From contig JALWRH010000060.1 of assembly GCA_026994195.1 (NCBI GenBank), positions 1 to 60,632 on the forward strand: a stretch of 60,632 nucleotides of DNA, in the 5' to 3' direction. The stretch comes from Sedimenticola sp. (GTDB lineage: Bacteria > Pseudomonadota > Gammaproteobacteria > Chromatiales > Chromatiaceae). The notes below the pieces were generated by a model. That model saw nothing but the letters and a program-made list of their open reading frames with translations, was not told the origin of the DNA and did not search any database. Position numbers and translations under genes: made by a program. Below, piece by piece: positions 15,679-49,637 of the stretch (its first letter is position 1; each line of letters opens with the position of its first letter).

Positions 15679-15698
15679 CGCCCACAGTTGACGTATTC

Positions 15699-18397: not shown

Positions 18398-18533
18398 AAA
18401 CAGCGGTCATATGGTTTCTGGCCAGGATTTCTTGCGCAGGAAAGCGATTGGGAGCAAGCAGGGGAATAATGCTAAGATATCCCGAGTAAATGGGTTTGAT
18501 GAAACGTTTACCACAAGAGGAAACATCATCAAA

Positions 18534-19433
18534 ATGGTTATGAGGAAGGCGGTGCCCATCGTGTTGGTTATGCTGTTGCTGCTTTGTGGCAGCGCCATGG
18601 CCAAGGACGAAACCATCGCTGTGCTATCCGAACTGCAGGGCGAAGCACTGTTGTTCCAGGGAGACCGTTACCTCCCCGTGGAGAAAGGGCGGCGTCTTAA
18701 AGAAGGTGATCGCTTGATGATCATGGAAGATTCCAAGGTAAGGATCATTTTTGACAATGATTGCGATATTTCCTGGGAAGGCGCCAAGATCATCGATATC
18801 CACGCTGACAGTTGCAACAAGCTGGCTGCTTTGTGGAAGCCTTGTCTTAGTACCGCAGGCAAAGCAGCAGATAGCGAAGACATCATTCTCAGCCAGCTTC
18901 TGGGGTCCGCCCTGGTGCGCCGCAACGGAAAATACCTGGCGGCAACAGAAGGGCAGGTACTTCAGGAGGGTGATGAACTCAAACTCGATGGCGCTGCTGA
19001 AATCAATTACCAGGGAACCTGTGTCACCACGCATAAGGGTAAGGTCTCGCTGAAGATCTCCCGGGATGCCTGCCCTGTTGCCCAGGTGCGCAAAGTGGAA
19101 GGCGAAGTGATGATTGATCAGGGAAATGGCATGGTGCCTGCAGTTGCCGGTGACAAACTCAAGGATGGCTGGAAGCTTGAGATACCCAGGAATTCGCGTA
19201 TCGAAGTTGTTTATTTCAATGGTTGTGATGAAGCTTGGGACGGACACAAAGTCGTGGCCATTGATGCGGCCAGTTGTCCTGCTGGAGCCGTGACCCCTGT
19301 AAATTGTACGCCTGCTGTGTTTGGCAACATGACGCTTGGAGATATTGGTGTGATCGGCAGCACCGGTGTGGTGTTCAGCCTGCCTCCCAAGAATCCTTCC
19401 CCCAACAACCCACCGCCACCTATCAGTCCCTGA
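18534..19433 (+). CDS. Secreted protein with three tandem FecR-like modules
   Basis: The 299-aa product has a clear signal peptide (MVMRKAVPIVLVMLLLLCGSAMA). The mature part is three repeats of a beta-rich FecR-like module: GEALL...G(D)RLKEGDR, then GSALV...QEGDEL, then GEVMI...LKDGWKL. Each carries two cysteines exactly 17 residues apart: Cys77/94, Cys163/180 and Cys231/248. Each pair probably forms a disulfide in the periplasm. The C-terminus is Gly/hydrophobic (TLGDIGVIGSTGVVFSL) and then Pro/Asn-rich. The open frame extends upstream, but ATG 18534 gives the signal peptide directly, with AAGAGG at 18515-18520. The 136-base gap before it could hold an internal promoter. Function unknown. 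Confidence 0.75.
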   Translation: MVMRKAVPIVLVMLLLLCGSAMAKDETIAVLSELQGEALLFQGDRYLPVEKGRRLKEGDRLMIMEDSKVRIIFDNDCDISWEGAKIIDIHADSCNKLAALWKPCLSTAGKAADSEDIILSQLLGSALVRRNGKYLAATEGQVLQEGDELKLDGAAEINYQGTCVTTHKGKVSLKISRDACPVAQVRKVEGEVMIDQGNGMVPAVAGDKLKDGWKLEIPRNSRIEVVYFNGCDEAWDGHKVVAIDAASCPAGAVTPVNCTPAVFGNMTLGDIGVIGSTGVVFSLPPKNPSPNNPPPPISP

Positions 19434-31851: not shown

Positions 31852-32979
31852 ATGAAAGTCATTTTTTTCGCCAACACGGACTGGTATCTGTACAACTTCC
31901 GCCTGGATCTTGCGCGTTACCTGGCAGCACAGGGAATGGAAGTGGTAATGATGTCCCCTCCAGGAGACTACGGGGAACGCCTGCAACAGGAAGGTTTCCG
32001 GTGGATTTCCCTGCCTATGGAACGGCGCAGCTTGAACCCCCTGGCTGAATGGAAGCTGCTCAGGCGCATCCGGAAAATCTATGAACAGGAGAAACCGGAT
32101 GCCGTACACAATTTCACTATCAAGAGCGTCATCTATGGTGGTCTGGCTGCTCAGGCGCAGGCTATTCGCTGCAGGATTCAGGCTGTAACCGGCCTGGGGC
32201 ATGTGTTTGTCAGTGACAGCCTTCGGGCGCGGCTGTTGCGCCCGCTGGTTAAAAGACTGCTGAAGCGGGCCATGAGTGGCAGCTATGGCAGACTCATCGT
32301 GCAGAATCCGGATGACAGGCAATTGTTTGTTGATCTGAAGCTCATCGCCCCTGGGCATATACACCTGATCAAGGGATCTGGTGTGGATACCCGGGTTTTC
32401 GTGCCTACCCGCCACAAGCGGGCGAGGCGTTTTCGTGTACTGCTGGCATCGCGTCTGCTGCGGGAGAAAGGTGTACGGGAATATGCCCATGCTGCGGAAA
32501 AGCTGGCAATACATGCGGATCGTATCGAATTTCTTCTGGCGGGAGCTACGGATCCCGGCAATCCCAGTTCTGTCGATGAAAATGATATCCGAACCTGGCA
32601 GCTCACAGGCCTGGTGAAAGTGCTGGGGCATGTGGATGAAGTCCAGTGCCTCATGCGGGAAGTGGATCTGGTGGTCTTGCCCAGCTACCGGGAAGGCGCG
32701 CCGCGGGGGCTGATCGAAGCCGCCGCCATGGGCTTGCCGGTGATCACCACGGATGTGCCTGGTTGCCGGGAAGTCGTAGATGATGGCGTGAACGGCTTGC
32801 TGGTGCCTGCCGGTGACGGAGATGCTCTGGCCGGGGCGATCCAGTATCTTCTGGACAATCCGGACAAATGCCGTGAATTCGGCCAGGCCGGAAGGGAGAA
32901 GGTGTTGCGGGAGTTCGATCAGAATATTGTTTTCACCCTGACCGGACAGGTCTACCGGGAGCTGGGTCTGTTGCCATGA
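31852..32979 (+). CDS. Glycosyltransferase family 4
   Basis: A 375-aa GT-B protein. KVIFFANTDWYLYNFRLDLARYL, then AVHNFTIKSVIYGGLAA and AVTGLGHVF are typical of the group that transfers N-acetylhexosamines or galactose to lipid-linked acceptors. The donor domain has VLLASRLLREKGVREYAHAA and the E-x7-E region YREGAPRGLIEAAAMGLPVI. It is the last glycosyltransferase of the locus and overlaps the next gene by 4 bases. Confidence 0.92.
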   Translation: MKVIFFANTDWYLYNFRLDLARYLAAQGMEVVMMSPPGDYGERLQQEGFRWISLPMERRSLNPLAEWKLLRRIRKIYEQEKPDAVHNFTIKSVIYGGLAAQAQAIRCRIQAVTGLGHVFVSDSLRARLLRPLVKRLLKRAMSGSYGRLIVQNPDDRQLFVDLKLIAPGHIHLIKGSGVDTRVFVPTRHKRARRFRVLLASRLLREKGVREYAHAAEKLAIHADRIEFLLAGATDPGNPSSVDENDIRTWQLTGLVKVLGHVDEVQCLMREVDLVVLPSYREGAPRGLIEAAAMGLPVITTDVPGCREVVDDGVNGLLVPAGDGDALAGAIQYLLDNPDKCREFGQAGREKVLREFDQNIVFTLTGQVYRELGLLP

Positions 32980-34112
32980 GTAGTGATCCTGTCCACCTGG
33001 CGACTGCAGAAATATTGCGCAGCCTATGGCGGGGAGAGATACCTTCCTGGTCCCGGGAGGAGGGATTCACAGAGGAGACCTTCCTGCATGATCTGGAGAC
33101 TCAGGGCATGTCTGCACTGGTTTGGTACCGGCTGAATCAGCTGGCCGATGCGCCTCAGTGGCCGGAGCCGGTGCTACTTTCTCTGGGCAACACTGCCCGG
33201 CGGGAGGTGGGGGTGGAAATGCTCTGGGACAGCGAAACCAACAGGGTGCTGGCTGCCATGACGGAAGAGAATATTCAGCCCTTGCTGTTCAAGGGTGCCG
33301 CCTTTTCCCATTGCCTGTATCCACAGGCGGGGCTTCGGCCACGCTGCGATGCGGATCTGCTGGTGCCCCAGTCTGACAGGGAAGCAGCGGAATCCGTGAT
33401 GCAATCCTTGGGCTATGAGCCCCTGTACCAGGCACGTGCCGAGTATATCAGCGGCCAGATGACCTGGGTGAAACCTGACGGTGGGGGTGTGGGATACAGC
33501 CACGACCTTCACTGGCGTATCAGGAACAACCATCGGGCATTTGTCCGTGCTTTCGACTATGCCTGTTTGAGCAGGAGGTCTTGTGGGGTTCCAGGTTTGG
33601 GCGAGCATGCGCGCACCCTGAATCCTGCTGATGCGTTGCTTCTGGCCTGCGTACACCGGGCCGGGCACTATTCCTACAACGGCGAGCGTCTGATCTGGTT
33701 GCATGACATTCATTTACTGGTGGAAGCACTGGGTGAATCCGAGTTGGAGCTTTTCTGTGCTGCTGCCCGGGATTTGGAGCTGGAACAGCTATGCGGCGAC
33801 GCATTCGAAGGGAGCTGTTTCTGGTTCGGCACCCGACTTCCCCGGGAGCTTCAAAGGATGCGAGAGAATGCCGTGTCGCACAGTGAGGGGCGGCCTCCAA
33901 TGGTGGTGGACCGGGCGGCAGGCATCCGGAGTACAGTGTGGAGGGAACTGCGGGGAATGACATGGAATGAAGGCATAAAATATCTGGCTCAGAATGCCTT
34001 TCCTCCACCCGGTTACATGAAATGGCGTTATGGCCGGGACAATGGACTGATCCTGCCATGGCTATATTTGAAACGCCTGTTCCAGGGAATGACTATACTG
34101 ATCAGAAAGTAA
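32976..34112 (+). CDS. Nucleotidyltransferase-like protein (NTP_transf_5 type)
   Basis: A 378-aa protein with the pattern of the uncharacterised nucleotidyltransferase family. LLFKGAAFSHCLYPQAGLRPRCDADLLV contains Lys106 and the acidic pair Asp125 and Asp127, which resemble the metal-binding DxD of nucleotidyltransferases. A helical region with HRAGHYSYNGERLIWLHDIHLLVEAL follows. Homologues are known to me from cassettes with PqqD-like and HprK-like proteins, both of which are present about 6-8 kb downstream. It may therefore belong functionally to that cassette rather than to sugar transfer. It overlaps the previous gene by 4 bases. Confidence 0.75.
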   Translation: MSSDPVHLATAEILRSLWRGEIPSWSREEGFTEETFLHDLETQGMSALVWYRLNQLADAPQWPEPVLLSLGNTARREVGVEMLWDSETNRVLAAMTEENIQPLLFKGAAFSHCLYPQAGLRPRCDADLLVPQSDREAAESVMQSLGYEPLYQARAEYISGQMTWVKPDGGGVGYSHDLHWRIRNNHRAFVRAFDYACLSRRSCGVPGLGEHARTLNPADALLLACVHRAGHYSYNGERLIWLHDIHLLVEALGESELELFCAAARDLELEQLCGDAFEGSCFWFGTRLPRELQRMRENAVSHSEGRPPMVVDRAAGIRSTVWRELRGMTWNEGIKYLAQNAFPPPGYMKWRYGRDNGLILPWLYLKRLFQGMTILIRK

Positions 34113-34154: not shown

Positions 34155-34919
34155 ATGAGTTACCTGATGACCAAGATATTGCCCCTGCTGGTCTATCCGT
34201 TGGGATTGTCTATCCTGCTGTTGTTTGGCGCATTGCTCTGGCATCGGCGCAAAATCGTTGCCGTGGGTTTCACGGCAGCAGCGCTGGTGATCTTGTGGGT
34301 GGCCGCCATGCCGCGTTTTTCCGACTGGATCATCTCCACCCTGGAAGCTGAATGGCCGCCTGCCACGGCGGAGTCTGCACCACAGGCTGATGCCATCGTA
34401 CTGTTGGGCGGCATGACCCGGGGGATGGTGCCTGGTATGGGGTTTCCAGATCTGTCGGGTAGCGCTGATCGTCTGTTTCACGCGGCGGCTCTGTATCGTG
34501 CCGGCAAGGCGCCGGTACTGCTATTGACTGGAGGCAATGCGGAGGGTTATGAGGCAGAAGCGGTTTCCATGCAGCGCATGTTGAAGTTCCTGGGTATTCC
34601 GCCCGATGCCATGTTGTTGGAGACGCAAAGTCGCAATACCCGCCAGAATGCCGTCTACTCGGCAGCCATCCTCAATGCCCGTCATGCCAGGAGGATTCTG
34701 CTGGTGACTTCCGCCTGTCATATGCGTCGGGCCAAGCAGGCCTTTGAACGGCAAGGCTTTGCCGTGTTTCCGGCAGCCACGGATTATCAGGTGGTTGAGG
34801 CCCCGCATACCCTGCTGGGCTGGTTGCCTTCCGCCCGCTCCCTGAGCCAGACCACCCGGGCGCTGAAAGAATACTTGGGATTGCTTGTTGCCGCGGTTGC
34901 ACCCGGGCTGCAGAATTGA
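34155..34919 (+). CDS. DUF218 (YdcF/ElyC/SanA family) membrane protein
   Basis: A 254-aa protein with two N-terminal transmembrane segments (LLVYPLGLSILLLFGALLW and VAVGFTAAALVILWVAAM) and a DUF218 domain. Motifs are ADAIVLLGGMTRG, VLLLTGGNAEGYEAEA, LETQSRNTRQNAVYSAAIL and RRILLVTSACHMRRAKQAF. ElyC in E. coli affects undecaprenyl-phosphate recycling and envelope integrity, which fits a polysaccharide locus that uses the same carrier. The biochemical activity of the family is not established. Confidence 0.85.
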   Translation: MSYLMTKILPLLVYPLGLSILLLFGALLWHRRKIVAVGFTAAALVILWVAAMPRFSDWIISTLEAEWPPATAESAPQADAIVLLGGMTRGMVPGMGFPDLSGSADRLFHAAALYRAGKAPVLLLTGGNAEGYEAEAVSMQRMLKFLGIPPDAMLLETQSRNTRQNAVYSAAILNARHARRILLVTSACHMRRAKQAFERQGFAVFPAATDYQVVEAPHTLLGWLPSARSLSQTTRALKEYLGLLVAAVAPGLQN

Positions 34920-38949: not shown

Positions 38950-39138
38950 ATGAAAAAGAAACAGGACACAACGGATTCCAACCAGCCGGAGACAACCGGG
39001 GAAGCTGCCAGAAAGCCCTACGTGACACCCCGGATCCTGATGCGTGAAACCCTGGAGTCGGTCGCCGTGGGCGGCTGCGCCAAGGCCGATCTGGGAACTT
39101 GCGGCTTTGGCGGCATTGGCGGCCCTGTGAATTCGTGA
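38950..39138 (+). CDS. Candidate ribosomally made precursor peptide (62 aa)
   Basis: A short gene with GAGAAG (38936-38941) eight bases before ATG. The first 22 residues are polar and charged. Y24-V-T-P27 fits the YxxP leader motif recognised by PqqD-like domains in lasso-peptide systems. The leader continues LMRETLESVAV, then Gly41-Gly42, and a 20-residue core starting at Cys43 with CAKADLGTC (Cys43 and Cys51) and a Gly-rich end (GFGGIGGPVNS). The stop TGA shares one base with the ATG of the PqqD-like gene, and a radical SAM gene follows. It is plausibly a modified peptide (RiPP-like), but no product is known. It could alternatively be a small carrier protein modified on its C-terminus. Confidence 0.7.
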   Translation: MKKKQDTTDSNQPETTGEAARKPYVTPRILMRETLESVAVGGCAKADLGTCGFGGIGGPVNS

Positions 39139-39413
39139 TGGCGCAGTCCCTGAGCATTCCTGATCATATCCGCTGGCGCAAAGTCGCCGGGGAGGCGGTC
39201 ATTGTCGATCAGAGCAATGCGGAACTCATCGTACTCAACACCACCGGTTGCCGTGTATGGGAACTGCTGGCCCAGGGTTTGTCCGTTGCGGACATCGCTT
39301 CATGTCTCCATCAGGAGTTCGAGGTAGAGCAGGATCAAGCTGTGGCGGATGTGGAGCAATGCCTGGTTTCCCTGCAGGAGCTGGGCGTCGTAACGATCAC
39401 CGGTCAGACCTGA
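39138..39413 (+). CDS. PqqD-like peptide-binding protein
   Basis: A 91-aa protein of the PqqD family, which binds leader peptides and presents them to radical SAM enzymes. The pattern RWRKVAGEAVIVDQSNAELIVLNTTGCRVWELLAQGLSVADIASCL is the expected beta-hairpin followed by the helical wing, with the conserved hydrophobic/LN-T-G segment. ATG 39138 overlaps the peptide stop by one base (TGATG), so the two are co-translated. It precedes the radical SAM gene by one base, which supports a shared pathway. Confidence 0.88.
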   Translation: MAQSLSIPDHIRWRKVAGEAVIVDQSNAELIVLNTTGCRVWELLAQGLSVADIASCLHQEFEVEQDQAVADVEQCLVSLQELGVVTITGQT

Positions 39414-39414
39414 A

Positions 39415-40461
39415 GTGGAACTCAATGATCTGGTATCCCGCACCTGGGAGGAGAACATCCTGTTCAATGTCCTCCTGGAGCTGACCTACCAGTGTAACCT
39501 GGACTGCTTCTTCTGCTACAACGACAGATCCCTCCAGGGCAAGCCGCTTGGTTTGAAGCGCTACCAGGAACTGCTGCATGAACTGGCCGGCATGGGGGTG
39601 CTCAACCTTATACTCTCTGGCGGTGAGCCTCTGGCTCATCCGGATTTCTGGAACATAGGAGCCCTGGCCCGAGAGTTGGGGTTCGTTATTCGCATCAAAT
39701 CCAACGGTCACGCCCTGAGGCCCGATGTCGCAAGACGTCTCAAGGACGAAGTGGCCCCCTTCATCATCGATATCAGTCTGCATGGCGCCAGCGCCGCAGT
39801 GCATGATAGGCAGACCCGGGTGCCCGGCAGTTTCAAGCGGCTCATGCAAAACCTGGAGGGATTGCGGGAACAAGGGTTGAGGGTAAAGTTGAATGCGACG
39901 CTGACGTCGTGGAACGAGCATCAATTGGATGCCATGCATGAACTGGCGGACAACCTGGGCCTGCTCCTGCAGGTGGATCCCCAGGTTACGCCGAGGGATG
40001 ACGGCGACAGAACACCCCAGACGATACGCGCATCTGATGCAGGGCTTCAACGGCTGGAAGAATTGCTGCGTAAGCGTAACCCGCAAGCTGGCCCAAGCTG
40101 TGATGGAATGGAGTCATCCACAGGAGACGCTAAACACTGCGGAACAGGCTCTTCCAGCCTGGCCATAGATCCCTATGGGAACGTCTATCCCTGTGTGGCC
40201 CTCAGGCGATCCCTGGGCAACCTGCATGAGCAGAGCGTGTGCGATATCTGGCATGGCAATCCCGTGCTGGAGGAGTTGCGTGGCGCCATGCGGGAGGTGG
40301 CCAGGCAGGTGAGAGTGCTGGAGAAGAACGGAAACCCGGTGCGATTCTGTCCGGGGCAGGCTCATAACCTTAGCGGAAATCCGGCACAGATATATCCAGC
40401 GGCCACGCAAACCCTGTCTTTGTCCATCAAAGCAAATCAAAACAGCCGCCATCCCGGTTGA
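39415..40461 (+). CDS. Radical SAM protein with SPASM-like C-terminus
   Basis: A 348-aa protein with the 4Fe-4S/SAM motif Cys27-x3-Cys31-x2-Cys34 (CNLDCFFC), then LILSGGEPLAHPDF. The C-terminal region has further cysteines at 229, 242, 260, 276 and 312 (HCGTGSSSLAIDPYGNVYPC and FCPG), which look like a SPASM/Twitch auxiliary cluster. This is the family that forms thioether, C-C or epimerised residues in peptides. It starts at GTG 39415, one base after the PqqD stop, and its 3' end overlaps the convergent HprK-like gene by 35 bases. The natural substrate is inferred to be the 62-aa peptide. The chemistry cannot be predicted. Confidence 0.88.
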   Translation: MELNDLVSRTWEENILFNVLLELTYQCNLDCFFCYNDRSLQGKPLGLKRYQELLHELAGMGVLNLILSGGEPLAHPDFWNIGALARELGFVIRIKSNGHALRPDVARRLKDEVAPFIIDISLHGASAAVHDRQTRVPGSFKRLMQNLEGLREQGLRVKLNATLTSWNEHQLDAMHELADNLGLLLQVDPQVTPRDDGDRTPQTIRASDAGLQRLEELLRKRNPQAGPSCDGMESSTGDAKHCGTGSSSLAIDPYGNVYPCVALRRSLGNLHEQSVCDIWHGNPVLEELRGAMREVARQVRVLEKNGNPVRFCPGQAHNLSGNPAQIYPAATQTLSLSIKANQNSRHPG

Positions 40462-41338
40462 AAACCAGATGGCGGGTAGTGGTGTGTTGCAGTATGTTCG
40501 TCAGATTGTCTGCAAGACGTTCGAAACGGTAAGGGTCCTCGTTCACAAACGGAGAGCATGACAGCAGCAGGGTGAGGGCTTCCCCTGGGCCCAGTGGGCC
40601 AATGGCATTCTCGTGCCCCTTGCTGAGCCTGAACAAGCCTCCCAGATCAAAGCTGCGGCGCTGCTCCGCTGACTGGGCGAAAGTGCCGGTGAAAGGCACC
40701 TTTTCCACCCTCACCTGGCCTGCCGCCGGCAACAGTACGTTGAGATCGTCACTCAGGATACCCAAATCCCGCTGGTGAGCCAGTTCCGACAGGGTGGATT
40801 TACCGGCACCGGAGTGACCGAGAAACAGCCGGGTTTTTCCCCTGAACAGGATGCCGGCGCTATGCAGCATCACGCCTCCCAGAGCCAGCAGCCGGTATGC
40901 TGTCAGCATTCTGAAGTAGTTTTCGAAGACCAGTCCGGGAAACCATTCATGGGCATCCAGAGATGTGCCCAGGTATCCTTCAGTGGGGCTGGCAGGGCTG
41001 ATCCTGGCCAGCATCTTCAGGCCGGCGACCTGCACCCGGTCTGGGTGATACTGGTATTCCATGCGTTCGTAGGTCCACCCCCGGGTATCGATGGGGCGGA
41101 AGCACCCGTCGGGGAGGCGGCGCACATGGGTGGCCACGCGGCTCTCGGCATCGACCGGAAGAAGGTAGTGTCGATAGCGCTGGCCTGCCGCTTGCGCCTG
41201 TGAACGGCTCAGGCCGGAGAACCGGTAGGGGCCACCACAAAAATCCAATACCAGGGTCTCGCCGCCCCAGGGTGGGGCGTTGTCCAGGATACAGGCGTCC
41301 TGGTTGGTATGGAGATAAAAGCTGGTTGTTGTGCTCAC
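40427..41338 (-). CDS. HprK-related P-loop kinase-like protein
   Basis: A 303-aa protein with Walker A GHSGAGKST (Lys180) and GILSDDLNVL, the pattern of the HPr kinase C-terminal domain. It lacks the N-terminal half of true HPr kinase/phosphorylase. It resembles the kinase of the cassette named HPr-rel-A in TIGRFAMs, which travels with PqqD-like and nucleotidyltransferase-like proteins (from memory). GTG 41338 overlaps the stop of the preceding minus-strand gene by 2 bases (TTGTGAGC), so both are translated as a pair. Its substrate is unknown; a protein or peptide of the same cassette is the simplest guess. Confidence 0.75.
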   Translation of the reverse strand: MSTTTSFYLHTNQDACILDNAPPWGGETLVLDFCGGPYRFSGLSRSQAQAAGQRYRHYLLPVDAESRVATHVRRLPDGCFRPIDTRGWTYERMEYQYHPDRVQVAGLKMLARISPASPTEGYLGTSLDAHEWFPGLVFENYFRMLTAYRLLALGGVMLHSAGILFRGKTRLFLGHSGAGKSTLSELAHQRDLGILSDDLNVLLPAAGQVRVEKVPFTGTFAQSAEQRRSFDLGGLFRLSKGHENAIGPLGPGEALTLLLSCSPFVNEDPYRFERLADNLTNILQHTTTRHLVFNRDGGCFDLL

Positions 41339-41751
41339 AAAGGGAACAGGCGCCGCAGAATATGGACAGTGAAGCGCGACAGGGCGTTCAGGCGGATGCG
41401 CCAGGGAATCCGGATGGCGTCTGGATGGCATTCTCCCCCCGTAACCCTGCCCAGTACCCGGCTGAGGGGAAAAGCCGCGTCGGGATGTTCATGGTTGTCC
41501 GGCCGCGTGAGACAATGCAGCTTTCCGTTGCGGGGGAATATGCCGAGCAGTCGGTGGGTGGTCAAACGGCCACGCCGGTCGAGAAAGGTGAGAATGTCCC
41601 CGGGCAGGTAAATGGCGCGTGGCTGGACGTGCAGGGTGGCCCGGTCTTTTATGAGGGGTGACATGCAGTGTCCTGAAACCCGGATGGGAAGCCCGTCGTC
41701 CGCAGCCAGTGACTGGAGTGCCTGTAGAGTCTCTTGGTTCAAGAATGCCAT
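41335..41751 (-). CDS. S24/S26-like peptidase with cysteine in place of the catalytic serine
   Basis: A 138-aa protein similar to the catalytic core of S24/S26 (LexA / signal peptidase I) enzymes. The box normally reading GxSMxP is GHCMSP here, so the nucleophile is Cys29 instead of Ser. PGDILTFLDRRGRLTTHRLLGI contains His66-Arg67, the base position of the ER/archaeal-type peptidases (HR). No transmembrane segment precedes the core. It overlaps the HprK-like gene by 4 bases. It could process the 62-aa peptide leader or be an inactive relative; neither is shown. Confidence 0.7.
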   Translation of the reverse strand: MAFLNQETLQALQSLAADDGLPIRVSGHCMSPLIKDRATLHVQPRAIYLPGDILTFLDRRGRLTTHRLLGIFPRNGKLHCLTRPDNHEHPDAAFPLSRVLGRVTGGECHPDAIRIPWRIRLNALSRFTVHILRRLFPL

Positions 41752-41966: not shown

Positions 41967-42947
41967 TCAGCGTAAGGGAAAATGGCACATGATCATATGC
42001 CCGTTTCCAGCATCCCGTGCGGGTGGCTCCTGTTTGGCGCACAGATCCGTAGCCTGGGGGCAACGGGTGCGGAAAGTACAGCCGCTGGGGGGATTCAGAG
42101 GCGAGGGCAGGTCCCCGGACAAAGGGTTGAAGGTCTTGTTGCGCTCGATTTCCGGATCAGGGATGGGAATGGCCTCAATGAGGGCGCGGGTATAGGGGTG
42201 GCCGGGGTTGCGGTACAGGTCGTCCCGGGTGGCCGTCTCCACCACTTTGCCCAGGTACATGACCATGACCCGGTGGCTGATCTGTTTCACCACGCTCAAA
42301 TCGTGGGCGATGAACAGCATGGCCAGCCCCATGTCCTCCTGCAGATCCATGAGCAAGTTAATGATCTGTGCCTGTATGGAGACATCCAGGGCGCTGACAG
42401 GCTCGTCGCAGATGAGCAGCTTGGGCCCCAGGATGAGGGCCCGGGCGATACCGATGCGCTGGCACTGGCCGCCGGAGAATTCGTGGGGATAGCGGTTGAT
42501 GAGATTGGGCAGCAGACCCACGCGCTGCATCATCTGCCTGACCCGTTCCTTGCGCTCCGTTCTTGTCAGGCAGGGTTCGAAGACCTGCAAGGGTTCGGTG
42601 ATGATCTCGCTCACAGTCATGCGCGGATCCAGGGAGGCTAGAGGGTCCTGAAATACGATCTGCATCTGCTGGCGGCAGGCACGAATCTGCCGGGCGCTCA
42701 GGCGGGAGATTTCCCGGTCTTCCAGGACAACCTGTCCACCAGTGACAGGCGCCAGCCCCAGAATGCCCCGGGCCAAGGTGGATTTTCCGCAGCCGGATTC
42801 GCCGACAATGCCCAGGGTTTCACCAGCTTGCAGGTTCAGGCTGATACCGTCTACTGCCTTGAGAAGGCGGTGGCCCGGGAACAGCAGGCCGTCGCCGGGT
42901 AGCCTGAAATGCACCTTGAGATCTTTCACGCGCAGCAGATCAGACAC
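41967..42947 (-). CDS. oppF: Oligopeptide ABC transporter ATP-binding protein OppF
   Basis: One of the paired ATPases that drive peptide uptake (326 aa). Walker A is GESGCGKST, the ABC signature is FSGGQCQRIGIARAL, and Walker B is LLICDEPVSALDVS. The C-terminal oligopeptide-transporter domain ends with a Cys-containing motif (CTFRTRCPQATDLC). GTG 42947 was chosen because GGAGG lies six bases upstream; an in-frame ATG at 42989 has no clear ribosome binding site. It is last gene of the opp operon. Confidence 0.92.
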   Translation of the reverse strand: MSDLLRVKDLKVHFRLPGDGLLFPGHRLLKAVDGISLNLQAGETLGIVGESGCGKSTLARGILGLAPVTGGQVVLEDREISRLSARQIRACRQQMQIVFQDPLASLDPRMTVSEIITEPLQVFEPCLTRTERKERVRQMMQRVGLLPNLINRYPHEFSGGQCQRIGIARALILGPKLLICDEPVSALDVSIQAQIINLLMDLQEDMGLAMLFIAHDLSVVKQISHRVMVMYLGKVVETATRDDLYRNPGHPYTRALIEAIPIPDPEIERNKTFNPLSGDLPSPLNPPSGCTFRTRCPQATDLCAKQEPPARDAGNGHMIMCHFPLR

Positions 42948-43012
42948 AGGATGCCTCCATCCTGGCGAAAGGCAGAGCCGGGTTGTCATTGCCAGCCAGG
43001 CTGTTCCAGTCC

Positions 43013-43981
43013 CTAGACATTTTTCGACTCCAGGTGACAGGCATTGAAATGGTCCGGGCTTACTTCCTGCAACGGAGGCTGCTCCCGGGTGCAGATGTCC
43101 ATGCGTTTCTCACAGCGGTCGGCGAAAGCGCAGCCGACGGGCAGGTGTAACAGGTTGGGTGGATTGCCGGGAATGCTGTGCAGCTGGGTACTGCCTGCCA
43201 GATCCAGTCGTGGAACGGATTTGAGCAGTCCCGCGGTATAGGGGTGCCTGGGATTCTGGAAGAGTTCGAATACCGGCGCGTACTCGCAGATGCGTCCGCC
43301 GTACATGACCATGACGTTGTCACTGATGCCGGCAATGACGCCCAGATCGTGAGTGATCATGATGATGCTCATGCCGAATTCCTGCTGCAATTCGTTCATG
43401 AGGTGGATGATCTGGGCTTGCACGGTGACATCCAGCGCCGTGGTGGGCTCATCGGCGATGAGCAGATCCGGCTGGCAGAGCAGGGCCATGGCGATCATCA
43501 CCCGCTGGCGCATGCCGCCGGAAAACTCGTGGGGGTAGCGTTTCAGGCGGTTGGCGGCGTCCGGGATGTGCACGGCGTCCAGCATCTCGATGCTGCGCTG
43601 GCGGGCTGTGCTACGGTCCAGTCCCTGGTGCAGCATGAGCACCTCGGTCATCTGCCGTTCCACGGTCAGGTAGGGATTCAGACAGGTCATGGGGTCCTGG
43701 AAGATCATGCCGATGCGGTCGCCGCGGATGCGGTTGATCTCCTTCGGCTTCATGCCCACCAGTTCCTGGCCCTGAAAGCGGATACTGCCTTCGGTGCGGC
43801 CGTTGCTGGCCAGCAGGTTGATGATGCTCAGCACCAGCTGGCTTTTGCCCGAGCCGGACTCGCCCACTACCCCCAGGGTTTCGCCTTTCTCCAGGCTGAA
43901 GGACAGGTCGTTGACGGCATAGACCTCCCCATCGTTGGTGTGGAAGACCGTGCGGAGGTTGTTCACTTCCAGCAAAGGCAT
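43013..43981 (-). CDS. oppD: Oligopeptide ABC transporter ATP-binding protein OppD
   Basis: The other ATPase of the pair (322 aa). Walker [10 protein letters not shown], signature [15 protein letters not shown] and Walker [15 protein letters not shown] are present, with the opp-type C-terminal Cys motif (GCAFADRC). It shares one base with the oppC stop, so the two are translationally coupled. Confidence 0.95.
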
Positions 43982-44862
43982 CAGCGGTCCTTGGGGTCCA
44001 GGGCGTCGCGCAGGCCGTCGCCGATGAAGTTGAAGCAGAACAGGGTGGTGGCCAGGAAGCCCGCCGGGAACAGCAGAGCCCAGGGGGCGCTCTCCATGTC
44101 CTGGGCGCCTTCGTTCACCAGGGCGCCCCAGCTGGTGGCCGGTTCCTGTACCCCCAGTCCCAGGAAGCTGAGGAAGGACTCCACCAGGATCACCTGGGGA
44201 ATGGTCAGGGTCACGTATACCACCACGATGCCCAGGAGGTTGGGCACGATATGCCGCAGGATGATGCGTGGCGTGCTCACCCCGCAGGCCATGGCGGCCT
44301 CCACGTATTCCTTGCCCTTGAGGGTCAGGGTCTGGCCGCGCACGATGCGCGCCATGTCCAGCCAGTTGATGGCGCCGATGGCGATGAAGATCAAATAGAT
44401 ATTGCGCCCGAAAAATACCATCAGCAGGATCACGAAGAACATGAAAGGCATGGCATAAAGGATATCCACGATGCGCATCATGAGTCCGTCCACCCGGCCA
44501 CCCACATAGCCCGCCGTGGCGCCCCAGGTGATGCCGATAAGCAGGCTCACCAGGGTAGCGATGATGCCCACCATGAGGGACATGCGCCCGCCGTACAGGG
44601 TGCGCACGAACAGATCCCGGCCCACGCTGTCAGTGCCGAAGATATGGCCGTTCTCCAGGCTGGGGGGCGTGGAGATCAGCTCCCAGTCGATGGCGTCGAA
44701 TTCAAAGGGACTCAGCCAGGGGGCAGCAATCACCAGCACCGAGATGATCAGCAGCAGCACCATGGCGGTCAGGGCTGCTTTGTTGCGCAGCAGGCGCGCC
44801 CAGGCGTCCTGCCACAGGCTGCGGCCTTTGATTTCTGTGTTATTGGCGAGGGCGTTGTTCAT
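43981..44862 (-). CDS. oppC: Oligopeptide ABC transporter permease OppC
   Basis: An inner-membrane permease (293 aa) with an N-terminal OppC_N segment (AALTAMVLLLIISVLVIAAPWLSPFE), six hydrophobic helices and the EAA-type loop (EAAMACGVSTPRIILRHIVPNLLG) that contacts the ATPases. It directly precedes oppD. The 108-base gap to oppB holds a hairpin repeat. Confidence 0.95.
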   Translation of the reverse strand: MNNALANNTEIKGRSLWQDAWARLLRNKAALTAMVLLLIISVLVIAAPWLSPFEFDAIDWELISTPPSLENGHIFGTDSVGRDLFVRTLYGGRMSLMVGIIATLVSLLIGITWGATAGYVGGRVDGLMMRIVDILYAMPFMFFVILLMVFFGRNIYLIFIAIGAINWLDMARIVRGQTLTLKGKEYVEAAMACGVSTPRIILRHIVPNLLGIVVVYVTLTIPQVILVESFLSFLGLGVQEPATSWGALVNEGAQDMESAPWALLFPAGFLATTLFCFNFIGDGLRDALDPKDR

Positions 44863-44880
44863 GCTGCCGCGCCCTCGATG

Positions 44881-44953
44881 CCCTCACCCCAAACCCCTCT
44901 CCCGGAGGGAGAGGGGCTCATCACTCCCTTCTCCCTCCGGGAGAGGGGCCGGG
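44881..44953. repeat. Two hairpins of a C/G-rich dispersed repeat between oppB and oppC
   Basis: CCCCTCTCCC (44894-44903) pairs with GGGAGAGGGG (44907-44916) around GGA. A second hairpin follows at 44926-44948 (CTCCC/GGGAG around TCC). Both start from a CCCTCACCCC(A)A block. This GAGAGGGG-type element is a common dispersed repeat of proteobacterial genomes. Being within an operon, it may stabilise the upstream mRNA or attenuate transcription, but it is too regular to be coding. Confidence 0.75.
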
Positions 44954-44970
44954 GGCGAGGGGAAAAGCGC

Positions 44971-45894
44971 CTACCCATACCGCACCTTCGGATCAAGCAA
45001 TGCATACACCAAATCCACGATGAAGTTGAACAGAATGATCAGCGCCCCGTAGAACACCACCACGCCCATCACCAGGGTGTAGTCGCGGTTGAGGGCGCCC
45101 TGAACGAAGTAGCGTCCCAGACCAGGAATGCCGAAAATCTGTTCGATGACCACCGAGCCCGTAATCACCGCCGCCGTGGCCGGTCCCAGGAAGGACACCA
45201 CGGGCAGCAGGGCGGGCTTGAGGGCGTGGCGCAGGATCACCACCCGCTCTGGCAGACCCTTGGCCCGGGCAGTGCGTATGGGATTGCTGCGCAGCACCTC
45301 GATCATGCTGCCGCGCATGAGCCGGGAGATGTAGGCGATCTGGGGCAGGGCCAGGCCGATGATAGGCAGGATGGTGTTTTTGAAAGCGCCACCGTTCCAA
45401 CCGCCGGCGGGCAGCCAGCCCAGGTACACAGCAAAAACCAGGATCAGTATGGGGGCCAGCACGAAGTTGGGAATGGAGATGCCGGTCATGGCCAGGGTCA
45501 TCACCGAATAGTCTGTGGCGCTGTTCTGGCGGAGGGCTGCCAAAGTGCCCAGGCCCACGCCGATAATCAATGCAATGGCGATGGCGCTCAGGCCCAGGCG
45601 CAGGGACACAGGAAAACCTGTGGCGATGAGCTCATTGACGCTGTAATCCTTATACTGGAAGGAAGGGCCGAAATCGCCATGGGCCAGATCCCAGAGATAG
45701 CGGCCGTACTGCTGAACCAGGGATTCATCCAGGTGGTATTTCTTGTCCAGGTTGGCCTGGATCTCTGGAGGCAAGGTCTTCTCTGTATCGAAAGGGCCGC
45801 CGGGCGCTGCTCGCATCATGAAAAACGCCAGGGTCATGAGGATGAGCAGCGTTGGAACGGCGCCCAGCAGCCTTTTCAGGGAGTAACGGAGCAT
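44971..45894 (-). CDS. oppB: Oligopeptide ABC transporter permease OppB
   Basis: An inner-membrane permease (307 aa; E. coli OppB is 306). It starts MLRYSLKRLLGAVPTLLILMTLAFFMMRAAPGGPF, the typical OppB/DppB N-terminus. It has about six helices and the EAA loop RTARAKGLPERVVILRHALKPALLP. It begins 13 bases after the M3 peptidase stop on the minus strand. Confidence 0.95.
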   Translation of the reverse strand: MLRYSLKRLLGAVPTLLILMTLAFFMMRAAPGGPFDTEKTLPPEIQANLDKKYHLDESLVQQYGRYLWDLAHGDFGPSFQYKDYSVNELIATGFPVSLRLGLSAIAIALIIGVGLGTLAALRQNSATDYSVMTLAMTGISIPNFVLAPILILVFAVYLGWLPAGGWNGGAFKNTILPIIGLALPQIAYISRLMRGSMIEVLRSNPIRTARAKGLPERVVILRHALKPALLPVVSFLGPATAAVITGSVVIEQIFGIPGLGRYFVQGALNRDYTLVMGVVVFYGALIILFNFIVDLVYALLDPKVRYG

Positions 45895-45907
45895 TTATTT
45901 CGTCAGG

Positions 45908-48025
45908 TTATTTCTTCAGGCCAATGAACTCGAAGAAAGGTTCCAAAGAACGTTCGCGTTGCAAAAAGGCGCGAATGGAGTCTTCAATTTCCCGACTGCT
46001 CCCCACGGCGTAGATTTCCTTACGCAGACGCATACCCGTGGGCTTGTCCATGAATCCATTAGGCGCCTTGCGGAATACCGAGGCCATATCGGCGGCGATG
46101 GCGTCCGCCCAGGCGTAGCCGTAATAGCCCGCGTCATAGCCACCGCCCAGGTGTCCGAAGGAGGCAATCAGGCCGCTTCCCTCGGGAACCGGCAGGTACA
46201 CTTCACCAATGACCTTGTTGGTGACATCGACGACATTGTCGAATATCTTGGGATCAGTGGTCATGTGAATGGTCAGGTCCAGGAGTCCGTAAGCCAATTG
46301 GCCCCGGTAATAGGTGCCGACAGTGGCCAGGCGTACTTCCTCCAGCTTGTTCAGAACATCTGCGGGGATCTTGGTCTTGCCGTCACGGTAGTCGACGGCA
46401 AACCGGTCCAGTACCTTTTTGTCGCGTACCCAGTTTTCCAGCATCTGGGAAGGAGCTTCAACGAAATCCCGGGGTACGGAGGTTCCGGAAAGTTCCATGT
46501 AATCCACCTGGGTCAGGATGGTATGCAGTGCATGCCCAAACTCGTGAAACAGGGTTTGGGTGTCATCGTAGGTCAGCAAGGAGGGTTTCCCATTGCCGGG
46601 AGGGGGGAAATTGCATACGAGTGCGGCTACGGGACGCTGGTATTTTCCATTGGGCAGGCGCGCCGGAGGCGTTACCCCAAACTGGGCAAAGTGATTGTAT
46701 TTTCCTTCGCGGGGAAACATGTCCATATACAGCAATCCAAGGGGCGCACCGCTGTTGGCATCGCTGATAGCATAGAGGCGCAGGTCATCCACCCATTTGT
46801 AGGGGGCTTCCACGGGTTCGATACGGATGTTGAATATTTCTTCGAAGATGGAGAACATGCCGTTCAGGGTGTGCTCCAGTTCGAAATACACTTTGAGCTT
46901 GTCTTTATCTACTTGATAGCGGGTCTTGGTCAACTGGTTCTTGTAGTAACCAATGTCCCAGTAGTGAATCTTGGCATCGGGATTGCCGGTGTCCTTGGCC
47001 TTGAGTTGGGTAAAGGTGGCCAGTTCCTGTTTGAACTTTGGCTCCAGTCCGGTGTTGAGTTCCTGCAGGAAGTCCCAGGCTGTCTGGCCGTTCTTGGCCA
47101 TCTTGGTTTCGATGCGGTAGTCCGCCCAGTTCTTGTATCCGAGCAGGGTGGCGATTTCGGCCCGGGTCTTGAGGATTTTAACGAACAGGGGGGTATTCTT
47201 TTTCAGTACCCGGCTGGTGCGGGCAATGGAGAGCCGCTTGCGGGTTTCTTCCCGCTTGGCATTGCGCATCACTTCCAGGATCTGCCAGGTGACGTTGGCG
47301 TTGATGCGGTACTTGCCGTCTTTACCCAGAACTTCCTTGTTGTTGAGGAAATCTTCGCTGACGCCTTCGAGTTCCTCGCGGGTGAATTCGACCATGGGCT
47401 TGGCATCGGAGATATTGCGTTTGAACTGCAGTTGCAGGTCATTGAGGCGGTTCTTGAGCAACTGCAGGCGGTCACGTTTTTCTTTGGGGAGATCCATGCC
47501 ATTGCGGCGGTAGTCGCGCAGTACAGTCTTGAGGTACATGGCGTCTTCGCCGCTGACCTCGGGATGGGTGTCAGCGAAGTCTTTAACGGCTTTGTACAGG
47601 TCCCGGCGGAAGCTGGTGTCCACGAACCAGGTTTCCAGTCTTCGTGTGGCTGCCGCAGCAATCTCCCGCATTTCCTTCGAAGGGCTGGTTTCCTGGATCA
47701 CGTCAATACGTTCAGCGGCTGCCGAAACAGGCAGGTAGGCTTTATCCAGGGCGGTGATGGTGTTGGTGAAGGTGCGTTGTTCGGGTTTCAGGGCAATGAT
47801 GGCGTTCAGTCTTTGATCGGCAATGGACATGACGGTTTCCATGGTCGCCTGTAACTGGGCCGGGGTTTTTTCCCAAAGGGGCAGTTTGAAAACAACGTTG
47901 GCTTTCTGGGCTGCCGACTGGTAGTCGGAGAGTTGTTTCGGGGAAGCAGAAGTGGTGGTTGGCATGGACGCAAGGCCGAGTAGCCCCGCCACGAGGATGG
48001 CGCCTGCTCTGGAGATCTGAAGCAT
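45908..48025 (-). CDS. Exported M3-family oligopeptidase
   Basis: A zinc metallopeptidase of the thimet oligopeptidase/Dcp family (705 aa) with the active-site motif HEFGHALH and the downstream glutamate in DFVEAPSQMLENW. Unlike most bacterial M3 enzymes it begins with a signal peptide (MLQISRAGAILVAGLLGLASMPTTTSA), predicting a periplasmic location. ATG 48025 has AAGGA eight bases upstream; the frame also runs upstream but overlaps oppA. The gene sits between oppA and oppB, so it probably trims peptides before or during uptake by the transporter (inference). Confidence 0.88.
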   Translation of the reverse strand: MLQISRAGAILVAGLLGLASMPTTTSASPKQLSDYQSAAQKANVVFKLPLWEKTPAQLQATMETVMSIADQRLNAIIALKPEQRTFTNTITALDKAYLPVSAAAERIDVIQETSPSKEMREIAAAATRRLETWFVDTSFRRDLYKAVKDFADTHPEVSGEDAMYLKTVLRDYRRNGMDLPKEKRDRLQLLKNRLNDLQLQFKRNISDAKPMVEFTREELEGVSEDFLNNKEVLGKDGKYRINANVTWQILEVMRNAKREETRKRLSIARTSRVLKKNTPLFVKILKTRAEIATLLGYKNWADYRIETKMAKNGQTAWDFLQELNTGLEPKFKQELATFTQLKAKDTGNPDAKIHYWDIGYYKNQLTKTRYQVDKDKLKVYFELEHTLNGMFSIFEEIFNIRIEPVEAPYKWVDDLRLYAISDANSGAPLGLLYMDMFPREGKYNHFAQFGVTPPARLPNGKYQRPVAALVCNFPPPGNGKPSLLTYDDTQTLFHEFGHALHTILTQVDYMELSGTSVPRDFVEAPSQMLENWVRDKKVLDRFAVDYRDGKTKIPADVLNKLEEVRLATVGTYYRGQLAYGLLDLTIHMTTDPKIFDNVVDVTNKVIGEVYLPVPEGSGLIASFGHLGGGYDAGYYGYAWADAIAADMASVFRKAPNGFMDKPTGMRLRKEIYAVGSSREIEDSIRAFLQRERSLEPFFEFIGLKK

Positions 48026-48035
48026 GATATTTTCC

Positions 48036-49637
48036 TTAGTGTTTGAGAATGTACAGGTCTTTACTGTAATTGTGATCCAGCACGTTGGGTACATAGTTGC
48101 CCACCCAGGGTTTGATGAGGTGGCTGGAGACATAGGAGTAGATAGGCATGACCGGGTGATCACGCAGCACCAGGGTTTCCGCTTTTTTCATGAGTTCGAA
48201 GCGCTTTTTAGGATCGCTTTCCATGCTTGCCTGGTGCAGCAGCTCGTCATATTCCGGGTTCACATAACCCGAATCGTTGAGGCCGTGTTTGCTGAGCAGG
48301 ATTTCCATGAAGTTGTAGGGATCGTTGTAGTCGCCAATCCAGCCGGCACGAAATACCTGGGTGACCTGTTTCTGCTTGCGGTTCTCCAGAAACACTTTCC
48401 ATTCCTCGTTGACCAGCCGGGTTTTCACGCCCAGGGCCTGCTTCCACATGGCAGCGATGGCAATGGCGATCTTCTTGTGGTTCTCGCTGGTGTTGTAGCG
48501 GATTTCCACCGTCAGGGGGTTGCTTCTTGAATAGCCCGCTTCCTTGTAAAGCTTGCGCGCTTCTTCCACGCGTTTCTTCTGGGGCCAGTCGGCGTAGTCC
48601 AGCCGGGCGGCTTCATAGCCGTTGATGCCAGGAGGCACCCAGGAATACAGGGGCTTCTCCCCCAGTCCGGTGATGCGCTTGGTGATGATTTCGCGGTCGA
48701 TGGCCATGGACAGGGCGCGGCGCAGTTTGGGGTTGTCCTTGAAAGGTGGCCGGGTGAGGTTGAAACCAAAATAGTAGCTGCCCAGGTAGGGCGCCACCTG
48801 CAGTTCATCGGCCAGGTTTTTCTTGATCCACTTGATCTGCTGGCTGGGTACGTCCTCGGTGCGGTCGATTTCCCCGGCGCGGTAGCGTTTCAGCTCCGTG
48901 GACTGGTCTTCGATGGGATAGTAATACACCGTGTCGATAATGGTGTTGGCATTGTCCCAGTAGTTGGGGTTGCGTTCCAGCTTGATGTGAGACTGTATCA
49001 CCCACTCCTTGAGCACATAAGCGCCGTTGGATACCAGCTTGCCGGGCCGGGAAAACTGATCTCCGTATTTTTCCACGCTGGCCTTGTGTACCGGGTATGT
49101 GCTGGAGTGGTTGAGCAGGCCAAGGAGGTAAGGGGTGCTGGCCTTGAGGCGGATTTCCAGAGTGTAGTCATCCAGGGCTCGCACTCCAAGGTTTTCCACG
49201 GGCTGCTTGCCGGCGATTACGTCCTCGGCGTTGAGGATAGGGGCGAGAATCTGGGAGTACTTGGAGGCGGTGGCCGGATCCACGGAGCGGCGCAGGCCGT
49301 AGACAAAATCATGGGCGGTCACCGGGTCGCCATTGGACCACTTCGCATTCTTGCGGATGTGGAAGACATAGGTCTTGCCATCATCGCTGATCTCCCAGGA
49401 TTCCGCCGTTCCGGGAATCACTGTGCCGTCCGGTGCCTCTATGGTCAGGCCTTCGTAGAGATCCCGGAGAATGTTGGAGGAGGGCACGCCCTCAGCCTTA
49501 TGCGGATCCAGGGTCTGGACCTCCGCACCATTGCCCCGGTGCAGCACCTGTTCGCTGGCCAGGTTGTCGGGACGGGAAGATGCGAAAATGGGGTAAACAA
49601 GGACTGCAACGAGCAACATGATGAATGAGCTGCGCAT
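48036..49637 (-). CDS. oppA: Oligopeptide-binding protein OppA
   Basis: A periplasmic solute-binding protein of the SBP_bac_5 family (533 aa) that hands peptides to OppBCDF. The signal peptide is MRSSFIMLLVAVLVYPIFASS without a lipobox. Family motifs are LHRGNGAEVQTLDPHKAEG, LYEGLTIEAPDGTVIPGTAESWEISDDGKTYVFHIRKNAKWSNGDPVTAHDFVY and the GYVNPEYDELL region. GAGGATAACCT precedes ATG. It is first gene of the operon, 94 bases after mltD on the same strand; no strong promoter is visible in that gap. Confidence 0.95.
   Translation of the reverse strand: MRSSFIMLLVAVLVYPIFASSRPDNLASEQVLHRGNGAEVQTLDPHKAEGVPSSNILRDLYEGLTIEAPDGTVIPGTAESWEISDDGKTYVFHIRKNAKWSNGDPVTAHDFVYGLRRSVDPATASKYSQILAPILNAEDVIAGKQPVENLGVRALDDYTLEIRLKASTPYLLGLLNHSSTYPVHKASVEKYGDQFSRPGKLVSNGAYVLKEWVIQSHIKLERNPNYWDNANTIIDTVYYYPIEDQSTELKRYRAGEIDRTEDVPSQQIKWIKKNLADELQVAPYLGSYYFGFNLTRPPFKDNPKLRRALSMAIDREIITKRITGLGEKPLYSWVPPGINGYEAARLDYADWPQKKRVEEARKLYKEAGYSRSNPLTVEIRYNTSENHKKIAIAIAAMWKQALGVKTRLVNEEWKVFLENRKQKQVTQVFRAGWIGDYNDPYNFMEILLSKHGLNDSGYVNPEYDELLHQASMESDPKKRFELMKKAETLVLRDHPVMPIYSYVSSHLIKPWVGNYVPNVLDHNYSKDLYILKH

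Follow-up and report, generated by a model that had tools for sequence, protein, structure and literature searches.

What does a bacterium make from a 62-amino-acid peptide whose gene lies next to those of a leader-binding protein, a radical S-adenosylmethionine (SAM) enzyme, a kinase and two peptidases? The question is raised by a 60,632-nucleotide stretch of Sedimenticola sp. (JALWRH010000060.1, contig C60 of a 3.0 Mb genome; the whole stretch is called the window below), in which a cassette of five genes at positions 38950-41751 encodes the peptide, a PqqD-like protein, a radical SAM/SPASM protein, an HprK-like kinase and an S24/S26-like peptidase. A sequence-only reading of the window had placed these five genes, and the open reading frames (ORFs), their spacing and their strands matched its description: the peptide stop and the ATG of the PqqD-like gene overlap by one base, a single base separates the PqqD stop from the radical SAM gene, and the kinase and peptidase genes are convergent to these three. 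Our answer, to which we assign a probability of about 0.6, is that the cassette represents a new family of radical SAM ribosomally synthesized and post-translationally modified peptides (RiPPs) with a lasso-like front end, the product of which is a dedicated partner, as substrate or inhibitor, of a C25 protease encoded immediately upstream. No existing name was found for this RiPP family.

Conservation of the peptide and its enzymes

A total of 44 loci, 42 of them with a radical SAM gene, were assembled and grouped into 30 lineages (loci and genomes carry L and G numbers, respectively). A hidden Markov model (HMM) of the leader alone recovered 36 frames at E <= 3.2e-4; each has a radical SAM gene no more than 5.6 kb away, and for 24 the distance is 400 bases or less. 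Every one of the 36 peptides ended in Ser, against 10.3% of 13136 frames (probability 1.9e-21 if the 21 peptide-bearing lineages were independent); this count is not fully independent, because the 15 leaders used as seeds belonged to peptides initially identified with full-length models or visually. The consensus was Y/W-x-x-P-x-(I/L) ... E-x-(L/I/M)-E-x-x-A-x-x-Cys ... Lys ... Cys ... Ser-COOH, represented in the window by a leader running from KPYVTPRI to ETLESVA, a Cys-x-Lys-x5-Cys core and a C-terminal Ser. The lasso-type Y/WxxP motif was present in 36/36 leaders and the fuller motif in 35/36. The core held exactly two Cys in 35 peptides and four in the remaining one, with a Lys between the outer Cys in 35/36 (L224, with none, being the exception); among the 35 Lys-bearing cores, 30 have it 5-7 residues ahead of the last Cys. 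Exactly two residues separated the leader Ala from the first Cys in 35/36 cases, the window peptide alone having three, and the position two before this Ala was occupied by A (19), L (6), S (4), T (3), V (3) or I (1).

The core, which lacked any conserved Tyr, Trp or Phe, was identical across five genomes of the genus, and purifying selection was evident in the related pairs, where synonymous differences per site exceeded replacement differences in 13/13 comparisons (pS 0.34-0.80 vs. pN 0.08-0.26). Given these pairs, and since its homologues adjoin homologous enzymes, the peptide gene is judged to be real. None of the NCBIfam models matched any of 11 peptides searched (that of the window and 10 relatives). 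The sequence-only reading had made its interpretation depend on the peptide being conserved beside PqqD-like and radical SAM homologues, and conserved it was: the precursor was recognized in 21/30 lineages and PqqD in 28/30, together with the radical SAM gene. With a short conserved precursor beside a modifying enzyme, a PqqD-like RiPP recognition element (RRE) and a leader motif all found, the cassette is almost certainly a RiPP pathway.

Among the nine lineages lacking a recognizable peptide, G023, L090, L091 and L210 are accounted for by contigs ending within ~1.1 kb of, or inside, the radical SAM gene, while L212, L217, L219, L220 and L221 are genuine misses of the leader model; neither peptide nor C25 was found in the 17 kb of L212, and the other four carry a C25 gene with no recognizable peptide. 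A regular expression for the peptide was rejected for lack of discrimination (211 of 13136 frames vs. 798 of 65680 shuffled ones), and its matches, inspected by eye, included nothing convincing for any of the nine lineages. More generally, short contigs explain misses in G023, L083, L090, L091, L165 and L210; that of Thiocapsa marina (L091) bears only part of the cassette.

Relatives of the cassette were distributed among gammaproteobacteria (records of Thiolapillus, Sedimenticola and Thiodictyon), deltaproteobacteria and Acidobacteriota, and related public records belonged to Thiolapillus, Sedimenticola and Chromatiaceae. Counting the genome of the window in both cases, the radical SAM gene was present in 10 of 15 genomes of the genus, and close homologues (E <= 1e-70) in at least 6 of the 369 gammaproteobacterial genomes sampled; at least 50 of 396 Acidobacteriota genomes also had them (15 above 350 bits, the others forming a remoter group), both tallies being lower bounds as at most five candidates were scored per genome. 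Twenty-one of these 50 genomes were examined (18 plus L085, L086 and L092). A scan of genome contigs yielded 80 loci, of which 11 at 45-54% identity were kept and 69 remoter ones, beyond a sharp fall to 29%, were dropped, L094 being only inspected. Loci L087-L089 and L093 repeat genomes already sampled and are not counted among the 44, and L084 stands for G380. The kinase, used as sole query in an initial scan of genomes, retrieved no relative; of 18 genomes later listed with a kinase match, G019, G063, G066, G072 and G077 (E 1.3e-6 to 6.4e-4) were set aside as other HprK-like proteins.

The radical SAM protein carries a CX3CX2C motif (C27/C31/C34), and only three further Cys (C242/C260/C312) were invariant among 15 sequences. 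Its nearest solved chain was PqqE (87 bits), the radical SAM proteins fell below every NCBIfam cut-off, and the best model for the L085 homologue, that of the mycofactocin maturase, was likewise below cut-off. For the PqqD-like protein the best NCBIfam match was the lasso PqqD chaperone (8.2e-11; 42 of 70 bits, below cut-off). Tandem pairs of PqqD-like genes within one cassette were observed in L171 (7759-8364) and L172 (1713-2317).

The kinase, which the sequence-only reading had attached to the peptide system by inference, was found to be part of the cassette in 27/30 lineages, none being visible in L218, L223 and L224. Pfam support for it was weak; the predicted fold is PEPCK/HprK-like, the model (mean predicted local distance difference test, pLDDT, 91.6) having PEPCK and then HPr kinase as its nearest folds. 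Over 42 aligned rows, the His was kept in 40, the P-loop Lys in 41, and the two Asp in 41 and 39, and their spacing equals the His-Gly-Lys-Asp-Asp printed for the lasso kinase BsfK (PMC10368454). An extra kinase-peptidase pair was observed at the start of the L170 contig (2-778, minus strand), besides the pair of the G113 cassette.

The peptidase gave a weak Peptidase_S24 match (0.0093, below cut-off), and its model (pLDDT 94.1) had human SEC11C and SEC11A as top fold matches and also matched LexA, indicating a signal-peptidase fold. A Cys occupied the nucleophile position in 19 of 20 peptidases, Ser being found only in L092, and the His of the catalytic position was present in 20/20. The Cys-Met pair aligned with Ser-Met in two of the three SEC11 chains shown and with Ala-Met in the third, and His-Arg aligned with the His-Arg of all three. 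The S26-like peptidase was thus as the sequence-only reading had described it, with a Cys at the nucleophile position, and common (15/30 lineages), but not universal: because it is missing in 14/30 lineages, 12 of them Acidobacteriota, it is not a universal leader peptidase.

The C25 protease beside the peptide gene

In the window, the C25 gene lies upstream of the peptide gene, with a gap of 34 bp. The order C25-peptide-PqqD-radical SAM with convergent kinase and peptidase was also observed in G113 (L170) and G241 (L165, on a short contig). A C25 gene was present in the flanking sequence examined for 31 of the 36 peptide genes, with 28 of these 31 no farther than 203 bp from it, as measured between mechanical ORF ends; longer distances were seen in L208 (5.8 kb) and L216 (1.4 kb) and for the second peptide of L222 (371 bp). 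Among the five peptides without a C25 gene nearby, those of L031, L032 and L165 lie within 340 bp of a contig end, and in L165 a C25 fragment is visible at that end, 7 bp from the peptide. At the lineage level, C25 was found in 23/30. Two loci (L085 and L209) have two tandem C25-peptide pairs each, the paired C25 domains being mutual nearest relatives.

The association was also observed beyond immediate neighborhood. Among 92 related genomes, 13 had the cassette, 13 had C25 and 11 had both, for which Fisher's test gave 1.1e-10 with genomes as units, 5e-4 with genera as units and 0.002 inside the genus of the window, only the figure for genera softening the effect of relatedness. The two cassette genomes without C25, G014 and G023, have completeness values of 84 and 88%. 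Distances between C25 domains and between radical SAM proteins over 32 loci were correlated (Mantel, r = 0.83, 0/5000 permutations), although vertical descent of both genes together would be expected to give such a correlation as well. Taken with the 28/31 genes within 203 bp and the Fisher tests, these results bear out the coupling to C25 that the sequence-only reading had put forward as an inference, and we consider it very probable, on comparative sequence grounds, that the protease is functionally coupled to the peptide.

The catalytic His and Cys were kept in 36/36 C25 homologues. By eye, the protein of the window has a signal-like N-terminal segment, and it gave a weak CSLREA match (TIGR04214, 21.6 of 25 bits, below cut-off). 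Four large related ORFs surround the G001 cassette (L065, 303-12355); they share short matches with the window C25 protein and were missed by the catalytic-domain model. Another ORF family, resembling extracytoplasmic function (ECF) sigma factors by eye, occurs mostly beside C25 in six Acidobacteriota lineages (L211, L219, L220, L221, L223 and L224).

Proposed maturation and competing explanations

The nearest described arrangement is that of lasso clusters with a kinase (paeninodin PadeK, BsfK, pseudomycoidin PsmK/PsmN), which, according to PMC10368454 and PMC9266682, share the YxxPx(L/I) leader, the PqqD-like B1 protein, the His-Lys-Asp-Asp HprK-like kinase, the C-terminal Ser and, in some, a nucleotidyltransferase. 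Unlike them, the contig analyzed here has no asparagine-synthetase domain, and a radical SAM/SPASM enzyme, a Cys/His S26-like peptidase and a C25 protease are present instead; the lack of a lasso cyclase, already remarked in the sequence-only reading, was borne out for this contig, all four PF00733 asparagine-synthetase matches of the genome being on other contigs. HprK-like, PqqD-like and radical SAM/SPASM proteins also recur in SynChlorMet (ScmC-F), GeoRSP and HPr-rel-A/B systems, with weak profile matches, yet here the peptide is outside NCBIfam and has C25 and S26-like partners. The names ScmC, HprK_rel_A/B, GeoRSP and lasso PqqD were rejected, all being below curated cut-offs (the nearest, PqqD_rel_X, reached 26.2 of 35 bits). 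PqqE and the mycofactocin maturases are alike in domain order, CX3CX2C motif and PqqD partner, and differ in that only three further Cys are invariant here and no core aromatic residue is conserved. The peptidase resembles SEC11 (S26) and LexA (S24) in fold, and SEC11 in the aligned His, and differs in the Cys at its nucleophile position; the C25 protein shares with PorU and gingipains the catalytic domain with His and Cys, and differs in being tied to a peptide gene in a genome where no tail protein of the type IX secretion system (T9SS) scored above cut-off.

From conservation, synteny, gene pairing and motifs, we infer the following chemical steps and role towards C25. The PqqD-like protein would bind the leader at the Y/W-x-x-P motif, as in lasso systems, and the radical SAM/SPASM enzyme would then modify the short core, a Cys- or Lys-centered cross-link being the most likely product given the near-invariant Cys, Lys and Cys. 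The HprK-like kinase would phosphorylate the invariant terminal Ser, like most characterized lasso kinases, as its motif, partner and site suggest. Where present, the Cys/His S26-like peptidase would cut the leader after the Ala of the conserved E-x-x-A, a site in agreement with the -3/-1 rule for signal peptidases. A PF14907 nucleotidyltransferase may, in some lineages, attach a hexose or a nucleotide to the phosphoserine. Finally, the matured peptide would act as the dedicated partner of C25, as substrate or inhibitor, with the conserved Lys entering the active site, a detail to which we give somewhat less than even odds.

The phosphorylation step is probable by analogy. PadeK phosphorylates a C-terminal Ser that is conserved in the precursors of such kinase clusters, and PsmN, annotated as a nucleotidyltransferase, is required for the hexoses on the phosphoserine of pseudomycoidin (PMC9266682). 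Both features of such C-terminal Ser kinase systems, the His-Lys-Asp-Asp motif and the terminal Ser, were found here. In its most specific form, which is offered only tentatively, the proposal is that of a RiPP class whose product, rather than being a free natural product, is a dedicated, C-terminally phosphorylated (or phospho-glycosylated) partner of the caspase-fold C25 protease; this partner would present Lys as P1 in a cross-linked, Cys-bounded loop, act as inhibitor or acyl acceptor, and in many lineages be matured by a cysteine version of signal peptidase.

Several observations weigh against the reading of the peptide as a phosphorylated, dedicated C25 partner. Two weaker hits of the leader model (E 0.19 and 0.54) have no terminal Ser, and the kinase motif alone does not fix the phosphorylation site, since BsfK, with the same motif, targets Ser3 of a precursor ending in Asp (PMC10368454). 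Fold matches were modest (template modeling score by query length 0.45 for the kinase and 0.56 for the peptidase). On the side of the protease, the distances in L208 and L216 are long; L065 (15 kb examined) and L083 (6 kb) have a peptide and no C25 domain, the L065 genome carrying its C25 gene on a different contig; L064 has one peptide and two C25 genes; and four genomes of the genus (L027-L030) have the C25 gene in convergent orientation to the peptide gene. Contigs with a C25 gene and no visible cassette gene also occur in two genomes, G001 and G008, and C25 genes are present in G021 and G088 as well, which lack the cassette and whose C25 loci show no cassette gene. Moreover, C25 looks exported, and no exporter family was common to more than 3 of the 30 lineages among the ORF families shown.

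Rather unlikely, although the best placed of the alternatives, is a reading in which the peptide serves as a secreted natural product or signal, and C25, itself exported, carries out the last step of its processing by cleavage at the conserved Lys or at basic residues of the leader. Being more constant than the S26-like peptidase (23/30 vs. 15/30 lineages), C25 could be the general maturation protease, and the Lys of 35/36 cores would provide a site. Nevertheless, the shortage of a shared exporter counts against a secreted product, although neighbors were only partly annotated and immunity genes are possible, and a bacteriocin core would not usually be so constrained as to be the same in five genomes of the genus.

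Intracellular proteins that restrain a protease before it leaves the cell are familiar, staphostatins and Spi inhibiting their secreted cysteine proteases ahead of export, and microviridins are RiPP protease inhibitors. It is accordingly conceivable, if unlikely, that the peptide is an intracellular C25 inhibitor whose Cys-bounded loop, with Lys as P1, blocks premature activity before export. The peptide gene adjoining the protease gene, its duplication with C25 in two loci, the placement of Lys 5-7 residues before the last Cys and the restriction of each exporter family to 3/30 lineages at most would suit such a role, for which, on the other hand, neither a C-terminal phosphate nor radical SAM chemistry has a known need, and which leaves G021 and G088 with C25 genes and no cassette.

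That C25 is a PorU-like sortase, with the phospho- or glyco-peptide as a linker tying surface proteins to the envelope, is improbable. At E <= 0.01 the C25 domain had PorU as its sole match among solved chains, PF14907 was found near the cassette in 7/30 lineages and polysaccharide genes near it in three, and hexoses on the pseudomycoidin phosphoserine depend on PsmN (PMC9266682). However, the PorU sortase model NF033707 reached 165.6 of 420 bits, below its cut-off, no T9SS C-terminal domain (TIGR04183) scored above cut-off in the genome, and the surroundings of the cassette in G009, G113 and G282 held no polysaccharide match; a T9SS sortase identity was rejected on the first two grounds.

Quite improbable as a single system is the coupling of the peptide to a polysaccharide pathway through the Wzx/Wzy genes of the window, as the sequence-only reading had it. 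Besides the position in the window, the order glycosyltransferase-PF14907-DUF218-C25-cassette is kept in G006, and pieces of the cassette adjoin WecA-, Wzc- and Wza-like genes in G023; yet G009, G113 and G282 carry a full cassette, and no BLAST match to the polysaccharide proteins of the window was found in the flanks examined. Their neighbors include glucokinase, UvrC, a CDP-alcohol phosphatidyltransferase and an MlaD protein in G009 (10 proteins scanned), a resistance-nodulation-division (RND) efflux pair in G113 (3 scanned), and ribosomal protein S6, DnaB and a flagellar hook-length protein in G282 (5 scanned), and no polysaccharide family was detected among the two neighbors scanned in L207. 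With polysaccharide genes near the cassette in three lineages and no match in these three genomes, the coupling appears optional at most. Of the earlier interpretation as a whole, the RiPP cassette, its kinase and C25 stand, while the polysaccharide link is weak and the peptidase is not universal.

A peptide-derived redox cofactor like PQQ or mycofactocin, suggested by PqqE as nearest solved chain (87 bits) and by the below-cut-off mycofactocin maturase match of L085, is very improbable, as the core has no conserved Tyr, Trp or Phe and the kinase and the Cys would be left unexplained.

Genomic surroundings and implications

Positions of the cassette genes and of the genes upstream are given below.

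Table. Gene calls of the cassette and its upstream neighbors in the window
Feature	Position	Strand	Basis
Precursor peptide, 62 aa	38950..39138	+	ORF; leader model match 8.3e-9
PqqD-like leader-binding protein (RRE)	39138..39413	+	PF05402 1.4e-14
Radical SAM/SPASM maturase	39415..40461	+	Radical_SAM PF04055 5.7e-20; SPASM PF13186 3.9e-10
HprK/PEPCK-like kinase, 303 aa with GTG start	40427..41338	-	P-loop and His-Lys-Asp-Asp motif
S26-like peptidase, Cys29/His66	41335..41751	-	Alignment to SEC11 and predicted fold
C25 (gingipain/PorU-like) protease, 1288 aa	35050..38916	+	PF01364 3.7e-63
PF14907 nucleotidyltransferase, possible phosphoserine tailoring enzyme	32976..34112	+	PF14907 2.6e-39
DUF218 (ElyC/YdcF-like) protein	34155..34919	+	PF02698 1.2e-35

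The mechanical kinase ORF (40427-41431, minus strand) is longer than the version listed. The start is more probably the GTG at 41338, in a four-base GTGA overlap with the peptidase stop, because alignments to full-length homologues never start before residue 39 of the longer ORF and because 6 of 12 homologous kinase ORFs are 304-310 aa long.

The PF14907 protein may be a lineage-specific tailoring enzyme. Its family was present in 11/13 cassette genomes vs. 33/79 others (Fisher 0.004), G282 is among the seven lineages with a copy near the cassette, and its commonness in genomes without the cassette counts against a dedicated role. The DUF218 protein, which adjoins C25 in this genus only, is probably not part of the pathway.

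Within the polysaccharide locus of the window, DnaJ-domain and TPR genes lie at 15699-19433 together with a gene without Pfam match (18450-19433), relatives of which adjoin C25 genes in G006 and G001. On the other side of the cassette, Opp-type ABC importer genes (41967-49637, minus strand) adjoin the peptidase gene, with an M3 oligopeptidase and a solute-binding protein recognized by eye, and OppF and OppD are also beside the peptidase gene in G008, G006 and G001. Next to the first cassette of L211 lies a second, divergent one (14079-17999, minus strand; kinase, PqqD, a weakly matching peptide ending in Gly-Ser, radical SAM and C25). The promoter scan gave fewer sites than in shuffled sequences, and terminator-like sites (12 vs. 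a mean of 6.4 in shuffles) were not used for any conclusion.

The terminal Ser, the Cys-Lys-Cys core and the PF14907 nucleotidyltransferase go beyond the features of the sequence-only reading. In the open-licence literature, among the matches listed, neither a RiPP or radical SAM peptide joined with a C25/gingipain protease nor a radical SAM RiPP with an HprK-like kinase and an S24/S26 peptidase was described. The cassette is compact, and each of its steps could be tested in E. coli. If the reading of the peptide as a dedicated C25 partner is true, radical SAM RiPPs and C25 proteases, not found joined in the literature searched, would be brought together in one system, to which the cassette adds an apparently cysteine-dependent signal-peptidase fold, and the C-terminal Ser phosphorylation of lasso peptides would be extended to radical SAM peptides.

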